42,903 nucleotides of DNA, taken from the IMG/VR virus record IMGVR_UViG_3300021961_000198, positions 1 through 42,903 of that record, one strand, 5' to 3'. The notes beneath the pieces were generated by a model. The model ran no database searches, was not told where the DNA came from, and saw nothing but the letters and a program-made list of their open reading frames with translations. This DNA is from a virus. The stretch's first letter is position 1. Every line of letters starts with the position of its first letter. The position numbers were made by a program, and so were the translations under genes. Positions 6,082 to 42,655 of this stretch are shown here, one piece after another.

Positions 6082-6461
6082 CAGGCCGACCCAAGCCCAT
6101 GAAGCAGGCGCTCCGCGCGCTCGATCATTGCCGGGATGGCACCGGCAAGCGCGCCGCCTTCGGCATTCATGCGCTCGGCCTCGGCGCCGGAGAACTTGGA
6201 CCGGTGGGTGCCGCCCCACTTGCCGGCTCGCAGCAACTCGGCGGCGCGCTCCTTGGCGTCGTCGATGGCCTCGATGGCCTTGACCACGGCGGCGCTCCCC
6301 TCACGCGGGGTTGCGCGGAGTGCCCACGCTGCGTCGATGAGGGCACCGTGCCGGCGCTTCACGTCGGCTTCGGCGTTTCGTGCTGCCTCATCGGCAGCGT
6401 AGAGCGCACGAGCCCGGACGTTGGCAGCGTCGGTGGCTGCCTTGACGCTGGCGGGCGTCAC
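6081..6461 (-). CDS. hypothetical alpha-helical protein, 126 aa
   Basis: The GTG at 6461 overlaps the upstream stop (GTGA), making the start clear; the longer frame runs into the upstream gene. The product is Ala/Glu/Arg-rich and predicted mostly helical (SVKAATDAANVRARALYAAD), with a short Gly-rich break around KWGGTHRSKFSGAEAERM, and ends IERAERLLHGLGSA. No enzyme motif is visible. The ending TGATG couples it to the small membrane protein. Function unknown. Confidence 0.55.
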   Translation of the reverse strand: MTPASVKAATDAANVRARALYAADEAARNAEADVKRRHGALIDAAWALRATPREGSAAVVKAIEAIDDAKERAAELLRAGKWGGTHRSKFSGAEAERMNAEGGALAGAIPAMIERAERLLHGLGSA

Positions 6462-6910
6462 GGGCGCACCAACCGAGTCACGGCGACGATGTGTCCAGCA
6501 TCGTTTCGCACGGCCCCGTCGTTGGGGCCGGTTCCGGGACAGAGCACGTCTCGCCGCGTCGAGCCCGTGGCGCGGAGGGCCGCACCAACAATCCCTGATA
6601 CCACGTAGTGGGCTGCCACCACGTAGTGTGGGCATTCAAGCGCCCCTGCCATGTCGAGGCGGAATGCCGAGGGGCACTCAACCCCGTTGCCGCACCCGCA
6701 TTGATAGTGCGGAGCAGGAAGGCCAATAACCTCCCCGAACGCGGTGGGGCTTGCCACGGGGACGGGAATGCCGTCCACCGTGGCGAGAGCCCCCGGCGTC
6801 GAGGTGACGCGCGCAGCGCCACCTTCCGCAGTTGCACGCGGGTTGATGGTGGTCTCTGCGCCGTCAGCGGCGCGGAGAGTGATGGGGTGCGGAGTCAAGT
6901 TTACGATCAT
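6458..6910 (-). CDS. conserved phage protein, INLTPH-type family
   Basis: 150 residues; the ATG at 6910 has GGAG 6 bases upstream. The start MIVNLTPHPITLRAADGAET, followed by a Pro-Arg-Ala turn, GGAARVTSTPG, VDGIPV, GEVIGLPAP and a late PGTGPNDGAVRNDAGHIVAV, matches a widespread but uncharacterised phage protein pattern (N-L-T-P-H start, GxIxA/G end). It differs in an inserted cysteine-rich segment (CGCGNGVECP and a later ECPHYV, about residues 78-100) that could bind a metal. It is the first gene of the minus-strand operon, right behind the divergent promoter region, so it is probably expressed early and strongly. Confidence 0.7.
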   Translation of the reverse strand: MIVNLTPHPITLRAADGAETTINPRATAEGGAARVTSTPGALATVDGIPVPVASPTAFGEVIGLPAPHYQCGCGNGVECPSAFRLDMAGALECPHYVVAAHYVVSGIVGAALRATGSTRRDVLCPGTGPNDGAVRNDAGHIVAVTRLVRP

Positions 6911-6949
6911 TGGAGGCTCCTTCGGGCGCACGGCCCGGCTATGGAAAGC

Positions 6950-6977
6950 AGACTACCGGGAGAATCGTCCGCGTCAA
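6950..6977 (-). promoter_or_regulatory. candidate promoter for the minus-strand operon
   Basis: On the minus strand TTGACG (6977-6972) is followed after 16 bases by TAGTCT (6955-6950), a sigma70-like arrangement with a good -35 and a modest -10. It lies about 40 bases upstream of the first minus-strand gene. Confidence 0.45.
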
Positions 6978-13992: not shown

Positions 13993-14021
13993 TTGCGGAC
14001 TGATTCAAGGGGCGGCATAGT
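13993..14021 (+). promoter_or_regulatory. candidate promoter P2 (TTGCGG-N17-CATAGT)
   Basis: TTGCGG (13993-13998) and CATAGT (14016-14021) separated by 17 bases, right after an A9 tract that may act as an UP-like element. It drives the first leader-headed gene at 14067. Confidence 0.5.
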
Positions 14022-14036
14022 CAGGACATCAACCGA

Positions 14037-14060
14037 GACGGGCTGAGCGCCCGAGGAGAA
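14037..14060 (+). repeat. start-associated leader copy 1
   Basis: GACGGGCTGAGCGCCCGA (14037-14054) then GGAGAA, 6 bases before the ATG at 14067. CGGGC and GCCCG form a 5-bp stem with loop TGAGC, immediately followed by the Shine-Dalgarno. Confidence 0.85.
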
Positions 14061-14066
14061 AACACC

Positions 14067-14240
14067 ATGCTGACGACGACTGTAAAGAACCCTTTCGGCA
14101 CCAACAAGAACCAGACCTCGCAAGCTTACTACGATGGCAAGACGGTGCGTGTGTGGGACTCGGCAGCGCGCCATTACACCACTGCGCACAGCCTGACGAA
14201 GCATCAGCTACAGCGCGTCAAGATGCTTACTGCTGAGTGA
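14067..14240 (+). CDS. small hypothetical protein, 57 aa (cassette A)
   Basis: ATG placed by leader copy 1. The product begins MLTTTVKNPFGTNKNQTSQA, then YYDGKTVRVWDSAARHYTTA and a basic helical end (SLTKHQLQRVKMLTAE). It is small, polar, Thr/Asn-rich at the start and basic overall, with no cysteine or membrane segment. It stands alone between leader 1 and the intercistronic hairpin at 14253-14272, so it is a discrete one-gene cassette. Function unknown; nucleic-acid or host-protein binding would fit its size and charge. Confidence 0.7.
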   Translation: MLTTTVKNPFGTNKNQTSQAYYDGKTVRVWDSAARHYTTAHSLTKHQLQRVKMLTAE

Positions 14241-14252
14241 TAGGACGCCGAC

Positions 14253-14272
14253 GGCCCCCGGCAAAAGGGGCC
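14253..14272 (+). repeat. intercistronic hairpin 1
   Basis: GGCCCC (14253-14258) and GGGGCC (14267-14272) with the 8-base loop CGGCAAAA. Same layout and near-identical loop as the hairpins at 15216 and 15484. No T-run follows. Confidence 0.75.
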
Positions 14273-14278
14273 ACAACC

Positions 14279-14300
14279 AGGGCTGAGCGCCCGAGGAGAG
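14279..14300 (+). repeat. start-associated leader copy 2
   Basis: GGGCTGAGCGCCCGAGGAGAG, with CAG replacing the usual GAC at its 5' edge, followed by AACATC and the ATG at 14307. The hairpin core and Shine-Dalgarno are unchanged. Confidence 0.85.
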
Positions 14301-14306
14301 AACATC

Positions 14307-14528
14307 ATGGTCAAGACGACGGCAGAGTACGTGGATGGGGCGGCGGCGCGGTTCGCGGCGGACAACAAGGGCGACAAGGTGAAGCGGGCACGCCGGGTCA
14401 TTCCGAAGACGTGGGCTGAGCGAGTGGCGCTGTACTTGTCGCTTGCTGCTGACGAGCGAGCGCACGGCAGGCTGACTGTTGCGGAACGGTGGGAGCGGCT
14501 CGCTTTGCGAGTGGAAGGGGGTGAGTGA
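14307..14528 (+). CDS. small basic helical protein, 73 aa (cassette B)
   Basis: Start fixed by leader copy 2. MVKTTAEYVDGAAARFAADN leads into a very basic stretch (KGDKVKRARRVIPKTWAERV) and an amphipathic helical end (LYLSLAADERAHGRLTVAER, WERLALRVEGGE). Probably a single compact helical domain that may bind nucleic acid. It shares one base with the next start (TGATG), so here a cassette has grown into a three-gene unit under one leader. Not recognised. Confidence 0.7.
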   Translation: MVKTTAEYVDGAAARFAADNKGDKVKRARRVIPKTWAERVALYLSLAADERAHGRLTVAERWERLALRVEGGE

Positions 14529-14662
14529 TGGACGTGGAGCAACTCAAGGACGCAATCAGAAAGGCCGTGGCCGCGAACAATGACGCAAAGGGCGTATGCC
14601 CTGCGACCAAAGCGCGGCTACAGGCTGCCATTGACGCCTACGTCAATCGGGGACGGTCGTGA
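14528..14662 (+). CDS. small helical protein, 44 aa
   Basis: The ATG overlaps the upstream stop (TGATG) and the TGA overlaps the next GTG start. The product is MDVEQLKDAIRKAVAANNDA, then KGVCPATKARLQAAIDAYVN and RGRS. Two short amphipathic helices around a turn with the only cysteine suggest a tiny helical hairpin. The coupling on both sides supports it being real despite its length. Function unknown. Confidence 0.6.
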   Translation: MDVEQLKDAIRKAVAANNDAKGVCPATKARLQAAIDAYVNRGRS

Positions 14663-14898
14663 CGCCGACCGAGCGCATCGCCACTGCCCTCGCTATCTGG
14701 CCGGGGCGCGAGTTGGACGTGGCCGAGAAGGTCGGGGTGAGCAAGTCCCGGCTTAGGGTCTGGGCAGAACTTGCGGAAGGTCGGTACCTTGCGCCGACGG
14801 AGGGGGACGCGGCGAGGGTTGAGGTGGCGGTGCGGGAGTTGTTGGTGGAGCGGTTGTCTCGGTTGGTGGTTACGATGCCGGTGGGGGCGCTGGCCTAG
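14659..14898 (+). CDS. small HTH protein, 79 aa
   Basis: GTG start in a GTGA overlap. ELDVAEKVGVSKSRLRVWAE (residues about 17-36) is a clean helix-turn-helix (x-x-V-A-x-x-x-G-V-S-x-x-x-L), followed by LAEGRYLAPTEGDAARVEVA and a hydrophobic helical end (LLVERLSRLVVTMPVGALA) that could dimerise it. It closes the first cassette unit and sits just upstream of promoter P3, so it is a candidate regulator of the second unit. That link is inference from position. Confidence 0.65.
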   Translation: MTPTERIATALAIWPGRELDVAEKVGVSKSRLRVWAELAEGRYLAPTEGDAARVEVAVRELLVERLSRLVVTMPVGALA

Positions 14899-14927
14899 AC
14901 AAAACGACATTGAAAGTAGAAAGTTGC

Positions 14928-14955
14928 TTGCAAGGGTCGGTTAGAGGGGTATTCT
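14928..14955 (+). promoter_or_regulatory. candidate promoter P3 (TTGCAA-N16-TATTCT)
   Basis: TTGCAA (14928-14933) and TATTCT (14950-14955) 16 bases apart, ahead of leader copy 3. An upstream TTGAAAGT (14910-14917) matches the region before P1. Confidence 0.55.
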
Positions 14956-14968
14956 TCTCTCACACCAA

Positions 14969-14993
14969 GACGGGCTGAGCGCCCGAAGGAGAA
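14969..14993 (+). repeat. start-associated leader copy 3
   Basis: GACGGGCTGAGCGCCCGA then AGGAGAA, with the ATG at 14999. Same hairpin as the other copies. Confidence 0.88.
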
Positions 14994-14998
14994 AGACC

Positions 14999-15202
14999 AT
15001 GGACACGATTCAGTTTGTCGTCGAGTGGAACACGGGAACGAAGGAAGACTGCTGCGGGACGTGCCGCGACATCGCAGCGGACAACGAGGACGTGCATGCA
15101 GTCGTGCCACTGATGGAAGCGCGAATGGGGATGTGTGCGTGGTGCGAAGCCACGGACGAGTTCGGCGGCGACGAGGGTGGCGTCAAGGTCGGCGCTCTCT
15201 AA
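14999..15202 (+). CDS. small Cys-rich protein, 67 aa (cassette D)
   Basis: Start fixed by leader copy 3. After MDTIQFVVEWNTGTKEDCCG the cysteines run CCGTC and later CAWC (about residues 18-22 and 46-49). Two C-x2-C-type pairs about 25 residues apart form a likely zinc ribbon. The rest is acidic (DIAADNEDVHAVVPLMEARM, EATDEFGGDEGG). It may be a zinc-stabilised adaptor that binds a host protein. It is followed by an intercistronic hairpin. No family recognised. Confidence 0.7.
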   Translation: MDTIQFVVEWNTGTKEDCCGTCRDIAADNEDVHAVVPLMEARMGMCAWCEATDEFGGDEGGVKVGAL

Positions 15203-15215
15203 ACACACGGACGAC

Positions 15216-15237
15216 GGCACCCCGGCGAAAGGGTGCC
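15216..15237 (+). repeat. intercistronic hairpin 2
   Basis: GGCACCC (15216-15222) and GGGTGCC (15231-15237) with loop CGGCGAAA. Located between the cassette D stop and leader copy 4. Confidence 0.78.
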
Positions 15238-15246
15238 ACCACACAA

Positions 15247-15268
15247 GACGGGCTGAGCGCCCGAAGGA
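15247..15268 (+). repeat. start-associated leader copy 4
   Basis: GACGGGCTGAGCGCCCGA then AGGA, followed by AGCTGAAC and the ATG at 15277. The hairpin is exact; the region after the Shine-Dalgarno is slightly different. Confidence 0.85.
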
Positions 15269-15276
15269 AGCTGAAC

Positions 15277-15471
15277 ATGAACGCAATCAAGCAAGGTTCC
15301 CAAGTCCGGCAGGCACGCGCGGGCAAGTCCAACCTCGGCGTTGGTATTGTTGTTGAAGCCGACTCCGAGCATTACCACGCTCGGGTCAACGGTCGCGTTG
15401 TGTGGACCGTCCGGTGGGCTAAGTGTGGTATTGGGACAGGGTGGTGCAGCGAAGACCTCGTAGCGGCGTGA
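15277..15471 (+). CDS. small beta-rich protein, 64 aa (cassette E)
   Basis: Start fixed by leader copy 4; the longer open frame from 15025 lies across cassette D and is rejected. MNAIKQGSQVRQARAGKSNL, then GVGIVVEADSEHYHARVNGR and VVWTVRWAKCGIGTGWCSED suggest a small SH3/KOW-like beta barrel: a Gln-Gly turn, a GIVVE strand, and V-x-W strands at the end. Two cysteines lie near the C-terminus. Such folds often bind nucleic acids or proteins. The fold guess is by eye; function unknown. Confidence 0.68.
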   Translation: MNAIKQGSQVRQARAGKSNLGVGIVVEADSEHYHARVNGRVVWTVRWAKCGIGTGWCSEDLVAA

Positions 15472-15483
15472 TGAGTAGCCGAT

Positions 15484-15505
15484 GGCACCCCGGCTAAAGG
15501 GTGCC
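15484..15505 (+). repeat. intercistronic hairpin 3
   Basis: GGCACCC (15484-15490) and GGGTGCC (15499-15505) with loop CGGCTAAA. It differs from hairpin 2 by one loop base. Confidence 0.78.
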
Positions 15506-15511
15506 AGTGCA

Positions 15512-15536
15512 GACGGGCTGAGCGCCCGAACGGAGA
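15512..15536 (+). repeat. start-associated leader copy 5
   Basis: GACGGGCTGAGCGCCCGA then ACGGAGAA, with the ATG at 15544. Exact hairpin, one base inserted before the Shine-Dalgarno. Confidence 0.85.
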
Positions 15537-15543
15537 ACAAGCC

Positions 15544-15732
15544 ATGGTCAAATTTGAGAAGCACGTTGGCGAGCGGGTCGCGGTGGTTTTGAGCGCTGAT
15601 CGCGGCACCTGCTACGCTGTTGCGTTTGGCTACGAAGACAGGGACGGGTTCAATTGCACGCGGCCCACGAGGTGGTTCAAAACGCTGGCCGGCGCGCAGC
15701 GCGCGGCTCGCGAGTACGCAAGCAGGCCCTAA
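15544..15732 (+). CDS. small hypothetical protein, 62 aa (cassette F)
   Basis: Start fixed by leader copy 5. MVKFEKHVGERVAVVLSADR, then GTCYAVAFGYEDRDGFNCTR and PTRWFKTLAGAQRAAREYAS. Three or four strands followed by one amphipathic helix give a small beta-alpha domain resembling compact ferredoxin-like or KTSC/WYL-sized folds. The F-K-T-L-x-x-A-x-x-A-A ending is common in small phage proteins with a sheet packed on one helix. It is the last cassette; an intrinsic terminator follows 25 bases later. Confidence 0.7.
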   Translation: MVKFEKHVGERVAVVLSADRGTCYAVAFGYEDRDGFNCTRPTRWFKTLAGAQRAAREYASRP

Positions 15733-15756
15733 CGTCAAGGTGAGAGCGTCACAACG

Positions 15757-15790
15757 AAAGCCTCGGGGTCAGCCTCGGGGCTTTTGTCGT
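15757..15790 (+). terminator. rho-independent terminator of the cassette operon
   Basis: AAAGCCTCGGGG (15757-15768) pairs with the segment 15773-15784 (two G-T wobbles, 4-base loop TCAG) and is followed by TTTTGTCGTTT. The strongest intrinsic terminator I see in the window. Confidence 0.8.
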
Positions 15791-15802
15791 TTGGGGCCCA
15801 AG

Positions 15803-15902: not shown

Positions 15903-16364
15903 CTACGCCTTCCGCGTCAGCCCCTGCTCGATGAGCGAGCGTCCGCGCAACCGGATCTTGGGCGAGCGTCCAAGCCAGCCTGCAAGCTCCCGCAGGGTGG
16001 TCGAAGCGAGCACACCAACCGAGCACCCCAGCTCTGCCGCGCGCAAGGCGTGGTGCTCGTACCAATCCCTTGAGACGACGTAAGCCCCTGCGTACCCACC
16101 CTCGGGCTGTGGTGGCAGGTCGTGGCGTGCGAACCCTTGCGCGCGTGCTTGTCCGCATCCGAGCGCCACGCAGAACGAGAGCAGGTCTTCCGGTGAGATG
16201 TTGAGCCGCTTCGCTAGCAGGGTGATGAGCGCCGGCTGGTCGCTGGGCAGCGAGAGCGCCACGGTCGCGGGCTCCTCGATAGGGGTCTCGGCGGTCGGGG
16301 CGAACTCGACGACATCGACGGGCTCGACGGTGGCGTGCCGCGCGTTGCGGGTGGCGTGCGTCAT
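15903..16364 (-). CDS. lone minus-strand protein, candidate regulator
   Basis: 153 residues; the ATG at 16364 has AAAGGA 6 bases upstream. The first 40 residues are Pro/Glu/Ala-rich and flexible. LITLLAKRLNISPEDLLSFC (about 46-65) is helical with an H-T-H-like turn, and the C-terminal part (STTLRELAGWLGRSPKIRLR, then GRSLIEQGL) is helical and basic. It is the only minus-strand gene between the early and late blocks and is transcribed away from the terminase operon. The shared upstream gap (16365-16426) carries a GTCTCA palindrome. That layout is typical of a regulator gene, but no family is recognised. Confidence 0.6.
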   Translation of the reverse strand: MTHATRNARHATVEPVDVVEFAPTAETPIEEPATVALSLPSDQPALITLLAKRLNISPEDLLSFCVALGCGQARAQGFARHDLPPQPEGGYAGAYVVSRDWYEHHALRAAELGCSVGVLASTTLRELAGWLGRSPKIRLRGRSLIEQGLTRKA

Positions 16365-16403
16365 GGGTCATCCTTTTCGCCGCTTGGTAGTTGACGCGGC
16401 GTT

Positions 16404-16418
16404 GTCTCAAAGTGAGAC
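16404..16418. promoter_or_regulatory. operator-like palindrome GTCTCA-AAG-TGAGAC
   Basis: A perfect 6-bp inverted repeat with 3-base spacer in the divergent gap before the terminase operon. It lies 7 bases after a TTGACG (16391-16396) that could be a -35. The same palindrome recurs at 21822. Confidence 0.6.
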
Positions 16419-16426
16419 TGGATGAC

Positions 16427-16873
16427 GTGGCAACGAAACGCAACACTGACGACATCGACGCCGTGGCCGTAGGCGGGCTCTCGACTAGGGTTCAAGCGTG
16501 GCTGGACCGCGAGCGCCAGAGCGGTGAGTCTGAGGCCATCTGGGTGGCGCGTATGCTCTGCGCGGACATCGAGAGCAAGCGGTGGGCTCTCGAAAACGCC
16601 ATCGACCCCGATGAGAAGCGCCAGGCCGCGCTCGACTTGAAGGCCGTGGCCGACGCCCGCAAGGTCCAGATGGAAATCATCTCGCGCGCATCAGACGTCG
16701 AGCAAAAGAAGAGCGACGACGCGATGCAAGCGCAAGCGTGGCGGCAGATGCAAGACGCGCTTGCCTTTCGCGCAAGCCGTCCCGGCGGTGCCGAGGTCAC
16801 AGAGAAGCCCCTAACTAAAGCGGAGAAACGTTACCAGTGGGAGCACTCTCGCCCGAAGCCGTCAGCGTCCTAG
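16427..16873 (+). CDS. putative terminase small subunit
   Basis: 148 residues from the GTG at 16427, which follows GGA by 4 bases and lies outside the palindrome; earlier in-frame starts at 16391 and 16412 fall before or within the operator. The protein is charged and helical: a recognition-like N-terminal half (LSTRVQAWLDRERQSGESEA), a central helix with Lys/Asp/Ala repeats (DEKRQAALDLKAVADARKVQ) and a disordered basic tail. It precedes and overlaps terminase large by 37 bases. The small subunit binds the packaging site and activates the motor. The call rests on position, size and helical character. Confidence 0.55.
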   Translation: MATKRNTDDIDAVAVGGLSTRVQAWLDRERQSGESEAIWVARMLCADIESKRWALENAIDPDEKRQAALDLKAVADARKVQMEIISRASDVEQKKSDDAMQAQAWRQMQDALAFRASRPGGAEVTEKPLTKAEKRYQWEHSRPKPSAS

Positions 16874-34687: not shown

Positions 34688-37600
34688 ATGCCGCCATTCA
34701 AGTTCACTGACACGTCTGAGCCCGCCCCGGCAACCCGGTCGAGCTTCAAGTTCACTGACACCTCTGAACCGGCAACCCCGCCCCGGCCTAGCTTCAAGTT
34801 CACTGACACGTCCGAACCTGTAGCGCCGGAACCTGCTTTCCGTCCCACCCCAGCTCCCGCCTTTAAACCTCCCGCCGCGCCGCAGCCCATTGGCGAGCGC
34901 GTGCGAGAGCGTTTTATTGGCGAGCGGGCAGCGTCGAACATCGGCGGGCTCGATGACGTGCTGGACCCGACGCGGCGCGCGGCGCTCGTGAACGAAGCCA
35001 CGGACACGGCACGGGCCGAAGGCATCGGCAGGGAGATGTATCCCGGCGGCTCAATCAAGGCGGGCGTGAGCACGCCAGCGCGTCCGCTTGGGCGCGAGAC
35101 CCCCGGCAGCATCGACACCCCAGAAGCCCGCTTCGCTCTCGACAAGTTCCGCAAGGAGCGCGAGGTCGCGTCTCGTGGTGGCGACCCGGACGACGCCTTT
35201 GCAGTCCCGCGCACGTTGCCGGGTGGGCGGCGTCTCGTCGGTGAGCCGTCCGTCATGGAGCGTGTGGGCCAAGTGGCGGGGCTCCCGGTCACGGCACCGC
35301 TCGGTATCGCATCCGAACTCTACCGTCAAATTAAGCAGACGGTCACGGGCGAGCCGCAAGCGGAGGGCTTTCTTCCATCGGGCGACGACTACGGCACGAA
35401 CATTGGCCGCAACGTCGCCGCGCTCCCCGCCGCACTTGGCAACGTCGCCATGCGCAAGAGCGAAGAAGCCTACAAGGCCATCGATGAAAAGGGGTTCAAC
35501 CGTGCTCTGTACGAGGGTCTCGGCCTTGACCGCGACCCGGTGTCCATGCCGGGCGAAGCGTCGGCAGCGAAGGGCGAAGGGTGGAGTGAGTCCATTTTGC
35601 GCGGGCTCAAGCGCATCCCGTCCGAGATCGGGGACATCGCCACGGGCTTTACCCAGCTTGGCGTCGCGGGCGCTGAGGCTCTGGGCTCGCTTGGCACGCC
35701 CGAAGGCAACATTGAGAACGTGGTCAAGCAAGGCGTCGAAGGCGTCAAGGAAGTCGGGACCGGGGCGTTTCGCTCGTTTGCCCGAACGGCACTAGACCCA
35801 CGCGCTGAGTTCGAGCGCGGACCTATTGGAACGGCACTTAACGCCGCGATGTCAGGTCAAGGCGTGCGCAAGCTGACGGAGCCGTTGACCGACGCGAGCG
35901 CGGCCCGAACCGCCAAGATGACGCGGGAGTTAGATGGCCTACGCGCCGAGACCGCCCCCGCTGCACTGACCCGGCAATCGCTGTACTTCGATGCGGACGA
36001 AGCGGCCCGCGCGTCGGCACGAACGAAGGATGCGCTTGACGCTATGGACGCGCGCATCGACGTCGCGGAACGTGCCGGCAACGCTATCGACGACTCGGCC
36101 TATGTGGAGCGCGCAGACCTTGGCAAGCGGTTTGCCGCCCAAGAGGCACGGGTTCGCGAAACTCGCCGCGCGGTCGAGGTGTTTGACGGACCGAGCGCCA
36201 AGACCGATGCCGCCGCCGAAGGGTGGGCGCGTGCGGTCAAGGCTGGCACAAACGCAGAGCGCGGGATGGCAGAAGCAGTTGCAAAGCTCGAGGAGCTTGG
36301 CGTCCCCGGTCGCGCACTGAACGAAGGCATCGCCAAGACGATGGGCCTAGAGCGCCGGCTATCTACGGAAGCGGCCAAGCGGGCTGTCGCAGAGACGGCG
36401 GCGCGCGTCCCGTCCTATGTCGCGACGCTCGGGCTGACGGGCGCAACCGACCTCCTGAGTCACGGCATCAAGCGTCTCGGCGTCAAGTTCCCGGAGCTTC
36501 GGTGGTGGCTCAACCCACGCAACGAGCAAGTCGGGGAGATCGTCGGCGCGTTGGAGCGCGAGGGCATGGGGCGCAAGACGAAGCGAGAGCAGCAGCTTTC
36601 CGAGGCGCTCGCCAACGTCCCCGATGAGGCACGACCCACGGTGCGGCGCTTCCTGCAAGCTGAGCACTCGCCGCTTGAAGGCGGCTACTGGATGCCGGGC
36701 AACGACCGCTCGCGGCAGATGTTCGAGTTCAAGTCATGGGACCAATCCGGCAAGCCCGCGCGACCCGGCGGCAAGGCACGGCAGCAATCCGCGTTCACTC
36801 GTACCGAGTACGGCGAGATGATGCGGGCGAAGAAGCTCGCAGAGGCGAAGGCCCTGCGCGAGATGGCGGGCGACCTTGAACAAGGCGCACCGGCTGTCAA
36901 GGCGTTCGACAACCTCGCCGACTCGGCGCTCGACGTGGCACGGGCAGAAGCGGCGGCACGACTCGACGACATCAACGCGCGCATTGACCAAAGCGTCGGC
37001 GCTCGTGCTGAGCGTGGCGCGGCGGCAGTATCGAAGGCCGAAGACGCAACCATTCGCGCGCAAGGTGCCGACTTCGCATTAGGCGCCGCGAAGGTACGCG
37101 AGGCTGAGCTTGCGCAAGGTCTCGGCGGGCGTGCCGACAACCGGCCTATGGGCGCGGACGCCTTTCAAGCCGAACAGGCCCGCATCCTCGACCTGTCCGC
37201 GTCACTCCGCGCGACCCGCGAAGCCGCGACCAAGCAGGCGAAAGCCGAAGTCCGTCAAGGCTTGTCGGCGCAAGCGGGCGAGGCCATCGGCGGGGCTCTT
37301 GACGCGCGTACGGCTAAGGTCGGGGAGATGAAAGGCGTCTTCGCGGATGCGCTGAAGATCGCCCGAGAAGAGGCGCAAGCGGCCATCAACGCGACCCCAC
37401 GCGGCGGCAAGACGGCCACGCGCGAGACGTGGGACAAGGCCATCGGTGCCGAGCGCCGGGCCGAAGACCTGAAGCAAGCGCGCACGCAAGGGGCCGAAGA
37501 CCTCCGAACGCAGCTATCCATCAAGGCGGCGCGTGCGGCTGAGTCGCGGGCGTGGGCAGCGTGGCAAGACAGCCTCACGCGGTCAGAGCGCGCACAGGCC

Positions 37601-42239: not shown

Positions 42240-42412
42240 AACTCCATCCGGCTGAGCAAGACAGCGCAGGCTGACACCCGCGAAACGCTTGGGCAAAACA
42301 GCAGGTTTCGCTACAGTGCGTAACATGGCCGTCGCGGCCTACAGTTTACGGCCTGAGTGATGCTCAGGAAGCTGTGGCTTGCGACCCGACGTGCTCGGAG
42401 AGGTGGTGATGG
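42240..42412. other. intergenic region before the last genes
   Basis: No convincing gene. A possible promoter TTGGGC-N17-TACAGT precedes an 11-codon ATG frame that is probably spurious. CCTGAG (42352-42357) and CTCAGG (42363-42368) form a 6-bp hairpin with loop TGATG shortly before the ribosome site of the 42413 gene. Confidence 0.35.
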
Positions 42413-42655
42413 ATGCTCTCAAACTTGAAGATGACGGTGGGCGTTGCTGCGTCGTCGGCAGTCCTGATTATCGGCACGGTTTGGACTCTTCGGGGCGACC
42501 TTGTGACACAAGCCCAGCTCGCGGCGGCGGTCGCGGGAATGGACGCCAAACTCGGCCCCATCGCGGGACAAGTCGAGAAGGTGGCCGACCGGGTTGGGCA
42601 CGTCGATACGCGGCTGTCGCGGCTCGAAGGGCGCATGGACTCCTCGCCACGCTGA
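42413..42655 (+). CDS. small membrane/coiled-coil protein (holin- or i-spanin-like)
   Basis: 80 residues. LKMTVGVAASSAVLIIGTVW (residues about 5-24) is one transmembrane segment. A periplasmic-type coiled coil follows (LVTQAQLAAAVAGMDAKLGP, then EKVADRVGHVDTRLSRLEGR). One N-terminal membrane helix plus coiled coil is the architecture of an i-spanin and also of some class III or N-out holins. It lies after the endolysin-like gene and overlaps or abuts an edge ORF with lipoprotein-like sequence. The ribosome site AGGTGG is present. The exact lysis role is not determinable. Confidence 0.6.
   Translation: MLSNLKMTVGVAASSAVLIIGTVWTLRGDLVTQAQLAAAVAGMDAKLGPIAGQVEKVADRVGHVDTRLSRLEGRMDSSPR

Follow-up and report, generated by a model that had tools for sequence, protein, structure and literature searches.

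Results

A repeated leader precedes small genes

The window, that is, the whole stretch of 42,903 nucleotides analyzed here (IMG/VR record IMGVR_UViG_3300021961_000198), is a virus record with a terminase, a portal and a major capsid protein. The nearest named capsid proteins, about 25-30% identical, come from Arthrobacter, Microbacterium and Cellulosimicrobium phages; the window phage is thus likely to have an actinobacterial host. On the plus strand of the window, the sequence GGGCTGAGCGCCCGA, hereafter leader B, occurs five times, 13-15 nt upstream of five ATGs (Table 1). Under an order-3 Markov model, 0.0008 copies of its 15-mer core are expected on both strands of the window, and no shuffled sequence contained the pattern of leader, Shine-Dalgarno sequence (SD) and ATG.

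A preliminary description of the locus had listed near-identical leaders before the starts at 14067, 14307, 14999, 15277 and 15544, and all five are present there, so that each of these genes indeed opens with the same element. The common 18-base core that it proposed holds for four of them: copies 1, 3, 4 and 5 are identical over the full 18-mer, GACGGGCTGAGCGCCCGA, whereas copy 2 (14277-14294) reads CCAGGGCTGAGCGCCCGA, and has therefore lost the outermost stem pair and matches over the last 15 bases alone. Between the last stem base and the ATG, copies 1 to 5 have 13, 13, 13, 13 and 15 nt; the SD begins 1-4 nt past the stem and is itself variable in sequence. A sixth copy, the variant B' (GGGCCGTGCGCCC), differs from B by two loop changes and stands at the start of a leftward operon. 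All copies in the window are linked to a start and oriented with their gene.

The six leaders all precede small genes without structural match. No convincing family match was obtained for the five proteins behind copies 1 to 5, and protein comparison bore out the earlier impression that their genes are mutually unrelated.

Table 1. Positions in the window of the leader copies, of the elements upstream of them and of neighboring genes (G001, G005 and G006 are other virus records, see text)
Feature	Position	Strand	Remarks
Leader B copy 1	14037..14054	+	Stem 14039-14043 / 14049-14053; SD GGAG 14055-14058; ATG 14067
Leader B copy 2	14277..14294	+	Outer pair lost (CCAGGGC...); SD GGAG 14295-14298; ATG 14307
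Leader B copy 3	14969..14986	+	SD AGGAG 14987-14991; ATG 14999
Leader B copy 4	15247..15264	+	SD AGGA 15265-15268; ATG 15277
Leader B copy 5	15512..15529	+	SD GGAG 15532-15535; ATG 15544
Variant B' (sixth copy)	6922..6939	-	CGGGC-CGTGC-GCCCG; SD AGGAG 6921-6917; ATG 6910
Promoter-like TTGCGG-17-CATAGT	13993..14021	+	5' of copy 1; putative, from conservation
Promoter-like TTGCAA-16-TATTCT	14928..14955	+	5' of copy 3; putative, from conservation
Promoter-like TTGACG-16-TAGTCT	6950..6977	-	5' of B'; promoter and leader also in G005
Hairpin A, 6-bp form GGCCCC-CGGCAAAA-GGGGCC	14253..14272	+	5' of copy 2
Hairpin A, GGCACCC-CGGCGAAA-GGGTGCC	15216..15237	+	5' of copy 4
Hairpin A, GGCACCC-CGGCTAAA-GGGTGCC	15484..15505	+	5' of copy 5
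57-aa protein of unknown function	14067..14240	+	Behind copy 1
73-aa protein	14307..14528	+	Behind copy 2; homologues in G005 and G006
Helix-turn-helix (HTH)-like 79-aa protein	14659..14898	+	Weak match; leaderless; homologues in G005, G006 and G001
67-aa protein	14999..15202	+	Behind copy 3; G005 homologue 54%
64-aa protein	15277..15471	+	Behind copy 4
62-aa protein	15544..15732	+	Behind copy 5
150-aa protein	6458..6910	-	Behind B'; no relation to the G005 gene that follows B' there

Promoter-like sequences and a second hairpin upstream of the leader

Leader B is found in two settings, either 12-17 nt downstream of a sigma-70-like promoter or 6-11 nt downstream of another hairpin, designated A; the preliminary description had missed both of these upstream elements, as well as B'. 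Promoter-like sequences precede three leaders of the window (copies 1 and 3, and B'). Those of copies 1 and 3, at 17 and 15 nt, gave no call in a strict consensus promoter scan, and they align with a like arrangement in relatives. Hairpin A, GGCACCC-CGGCNAAA-GGGTGCC or variants of it, lies 6, 11 and 8 nt upstream of copies 2, 4 and 5, respectively. Over six copies from three phages (five distinct sequences), three of its seven pairs carry double changes, and its covariation score exceeds those of all 500 shuffles and of all slid pairings. An RNA structure is thus well supported for A by sequence comparison, and better than for B, since its covarying pairs outdo every shuffle.

The leader is confined to one lineage

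Sequence scans took in 2.9 million viral contigs (IMG/VR). Leader B was found in four other virus records: G005 (3300042518_000793) has three copies of B and one of B', while G004 (3300022179_001313), G001 (3300031951_011464) and G002 (3300042691_029819) have one B each, G001 and G002 being near-identical over their shared part. The covariance-model search found the motif conserved in related phages. Together with the pattern scans, it restricts the leader family to one lineage, and a mobile element spreading between phages is not supported. The terminase of G001 and most other proteins that it shares with the window are about 35% identical to their counterparts, a few reaching 62-68%; CAAGACGGGCTGAGCGCCCGAAGGAG is nevertheless unchanged in G001, 25 nt of leader being kept despite a terminase of about 35% identity. 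The small-gene module of G001 (L051 418-957, minus strand) is opposite in strand to the structural genes, unlike that of the window. In the window, a terminator-like palindrome (AAAGCC..GGCTTT, 15750-15800) ends the small-gene operon, and it is kept in G005 and G004. Elsewhere in the window, at 34697-34840, a 48-bp repeat stands three times head to tail near the start of the gene for a 2018-aa protein and codes for FKFTDTSEP-like units.

A further related record, G006 (3300015376_000426), lacks leader B and contains three copies of a different motif linked to starts, [CT]GTGAGGACGG; hairpin A, or one resembling it, precedes two of these copies. Outside G006, no other contig had GTGAGGACGG as a repeated start-linked motif, and the scattered matches look like chance. 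A 185-aa frame of G006 (L049, 30-587) spans hairpin A as well as the GTGAGGACGG start element and continues in frame into the gene that follows, which may reflect a gene fusion or else the loss of a stop codon.

Other matches to leader B were rejected. Its 17-mer is present in 11 further viral contigs, always within open frames without SD or ATG, and these occurrences are therefore attributed to chance. Matches in eight bacterial or archaeal contigs mostly overlap long open frames and come close to the chance number by a rough estimate; a single SD-linked copy in an unrelated phage (G003/L050) has different flanks, and about one such copy is expected by chance, again by a rough estimate. The blast match in Bradyrhizobium phage BDU-MI-1 covers the SD part, without the hairpin. 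No close relative of the leader was found in plasmid and phage collections, Rfam gave no match at the gathering score (one chance-level match, E 4.8), and a search for more phages with the HTH-like gene family as marker returned the already known records alone. No description of this leader was found in the open-access literature searched, although one may exist elsewhere.

Genes have been replaced behind a conserved leader

Three promoter-leader units of the window can be aligned with counterparts in relatives, over 68 nt upstream: copy 1 with G005 (85% identity), copy 3 with G004 (78%) and B' with G005 (82%). Behind all three, the first 90 coding bases are at the level of shuffled sequence and the encoded proteins have no similarity. 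Conversely, the copy 2 gene is matched in G005 by a leaderless homologue, overlapping the preceding gene, and in G006 by one that carries the GTGAGGACGG motif instead; the G005 homologue of the copy 3 gene is leaderless as well. As unrelated genes lie behind homologous leaders, and homologues exist without a leader, leader and gene are inherited separately. These comparisons show that genes have been replaced and that the leader marks the boundary of the replacement; recombination may have taken place within the leader itself. The recombinogenic start cassette of the preliminary description fits this in the sense of a junction behind which genes are exchanged.

Leader B is a probable RNA hairpin

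The stretch upstream of the SD has a predicted energy of about -5 to -9.7 kcal/mol, and 98% of the stem cells are paired in an alignment of 12 copies of leader B. The outer pair is lost in one copy, and two one-sided changes in a G005 copy (L048 9554-) both lead to G-U pairs. The hairpin that had been described, CGGGC/GCCCG with loop TGAGC, is thus predicted to pair, but no double compensatory change was found in stem B across the 12 copies. Covariation consequently gives this stem no support, which leaves room for a protein-bound or DNA-level role. In longer folds that include the coding region, B dominates in four of seven promoter-linked transcripts (probability 0.88-1.0); it is minor (0.15-0.44) in the three others (G001, G005b and copy 3), where other pairings are favored. 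An RNA hairpin is nonetheless probable from the position of B, fixed to the SD and not to the promoter, from its orientation, and from the copies that have no promoter.

Discussion

A proposed leader for exchangeable genes

The reading that we prefer, with a confidence slightly short of even, is that B is a standardized 5' leader, hairpin plus SD, which would secure the 5' end and the translation of exchangeable small genes. It consists of a 5-bp stem and a 5-nt loop, ending 1-4 nt before a good SD and 13-15 nt before the ATG. Behind promoters, transcripts would begin about 5-10 nt before B, which could there shield the 5' end from decay while keeping the ribosome site single-stranded regardless of the gene behind. 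Inside the operon, hairpin A would close the upstream cistron and B would open the next one, with possible RNA cleavage in the single-stranded spacer between them. Small genes could then be inserted behind the leader because initiation would be independent of the coding sequence, and the shared leader sequence may itself aid recombination. We infer the transcription starts, the RNA folding of B, stabilization, processing and recombination at the leader. The distance from the leader to SD and ATG is near-fixed and that to the promoter -10 variable (12 to 17 nt), some copies being promoterless; near-fixed spacing and orientation beside a variable promoter distance count for a leader. So do the unchanged leader of G001, the predicted pairing of stem B, the covariation of hairpin A and the unrelated genes behind homologous promoter-leader units.

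Work on other bacteria bears on this proposal. The nearest precedent that has been tested comes from an actinobacterium: as reported in PMC2358910, a 5' stem-loop followed by the SD protects the gyrase mRNA of M. smegmatis, which becomes less stable when the stem-loop is disrupted. The katG mRNA treated in that paper is processed upstream of the start and stabilized by a polypurine SD (PMC2358910). In Bacillus, a hairpin or ribosome binding site close to the 5' end stabilizes mRNA (PMC3997798). On the other side, one Bacillus subtilis construct had a shorter-lived mRNA when a stem-loop was placed close to the SD (PMC7509114), which counts against the leader reading. The same holds for the lack of covariation in stem B, for the promoters that a strict scan misses, for the other pairings favored in some longer folds, and for the hairpins before SDs outside the B family, which are not significantly commoner at spaced than at coupled starts. 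An extended version, which we consider doubtful, is that A, downstream of one gene, and B, upstream of the next, frame cistron cassettes: cleavage between them would yield single-gene messages with protected ends, the shared ends would serve as joints for exchange, and each lineage would have its own start element.

The main rival, possible though on the unlikely side, is a site of translational or mRNA control: a protein of phage or host, or else a small RNA, would bind the hairpin (loop YGWGC) next to the SD, so that the genes form one regulon. Such a site would explain why loop and flanks are conserved besides the stem (UGAGC in 10 of 12 copies), why the element is constant while the genes change, and why motifs are lineage-specific, as with GTGAGGACGG in G006, which is expected if a motif co-evolves with its factor. 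However, no candidate binding protein was found, two positions of the loop are not the same in B and B', and recent duplication accounts for the identity equally well.

Descent by itself is also to be weighed: a good promoter or ribosome binding site would have been copied along with small genes, through duplication and recombination, and kept by descent and selection on the SD alone, the structure having no function. Stem B without covariation agrees with this, as do hairpins beside SDs being common background at 64% GC, and several pairs of copies sharing sequence further upstream, into the promoter or hairpin A. We hold it to be unlikely all the same, as the flanks have diverged far more than the 18-25 nt of leader, which is perfect in G001 although most of the other proteins that G001 shares reach about 35% identity, and the conserved part is the hairpin, upstream of the SD.

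A DNA operator, the palindrome CGGGC-N5-GCCCG being recognized by a phage transcription regulator such as the HTH-like protein of the module, appears quite improbable. The site is palindromic and just downstream of promoters, and small HTH-like genes are present in the modules of the window, G005, G006 and G001; yet copies 2, 4 and 5 have hairpin A in place of a nearby promoter, the distance is fixed to the SD and not to the promoter, the asymmetric center always has the same orientation, the G005 variant breaks the DNA symmetry at two positions while keeping G-U pairs, and G006 has the HTH gene without the site. A promoter-proximal antitermination signal (nut- or put-like RNA) is extremely improbable. 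Promoters of both directions are indeed closely followed by a stem of 5 bp and a loop of 5 nt, but no boxA is conserved by eye, loop B is not GNNNA as is the loop of lambda boxB, and the leader abuts the SD and repeats every 240-700 bp in one operon.

Comparison with known systems

The start-associated sequences (SAS) of cluster K mycobacteriophages, to which the preliminary description had likened the leader while noting a different motif, lie at unrelated non-structural genes in one orientation, with promoters upstream of a subset (PMC3203893; PMC11373665), and their function is still termed ill-defined (PMC11373665). The comparison is apt: both are short oriented repeats directly before the ATG of unrelated small non-structural genes, conserved beyond the SD and in part directly preceded by promoter-bearing sequence, and SAS ends in GGG...CCC, much as leader B does. 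They differ in that the SD (AGGAG) is inside the SAS repeat but downstream of leader B, in number (six copies in the window versus 11-19 for SAS), and probably in what lies upstream: promoter-like sequences or hairpin A, as opposed to the pair of 17-bp imperfect inverted repeats carrying a promoter in ESAS. The 13-bp SAS consensus GGGATAGGAGCCC, allowing up to two deviations, has three matches in the window (0.62 expected), none of them at the six leader sites. With the SAS sequence absent from the sites and the SD outside the repeat, the leader is not a member of the SAS family.

The M. smegmatis gyrase leader and ompA-type stabilizers have a hairpin near the 5' end followed by the SD, as is predicted for leader B, with a proposed role in mRNA stability; they are single-gene leaders, unlike leader B, which is repeated before unrelated genes. 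By analogy, the way in which leader B works may resemble that of SAS/ESAS or of the gyrase leader. The 17-bp repeats of cluster O mycobacteriophages (PMC4351075) are also repeated palindromes with signs of recombination, but they are not closely linked to starts, one third lie in genes, and their orientation has no meaning.

The role of phage start-associated repeats has been open since 2011. Leader B, which has another sequence and belongs to another phage group, is a case independent of SAS; it adds comparative evidence for gene exchange behind a conserved leader, and a hairpin probably forms next to its SD. Since the element is small and portable, the function of start repeats becomes testable. 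If the host is an actinobacterium, leader B could serve as an insulated ribosome binding site in actinobacteria.

Hairpins before other genes

When the B family is excluded, a hairpin precedes the SD at 44 of 93 SD..ATG sites of any kind, at 12 of 24 spaced starts and at 23 of 58 coupled ones (p=0.27 for spaced versus coupled). A general rule by which each SD of these phages would follow a hairpin is not supported, as the difference (p=0.008 with the B copies) vanishes without them. Individual cases exist: the leftward gene at 15903-16364 has a leader hairpin of its own, CGCCGC-12 nt-GCGGCG, abutting AAAGGA (16364-16440, minus strand), also present in G004 and G006, and the last gene of the window (42390-42413; counterparts L075 and L076) has a small hairpin before GAGGTGGTGATG; no two of the three phages have the same stem sequence there, and their SD region does not vary.
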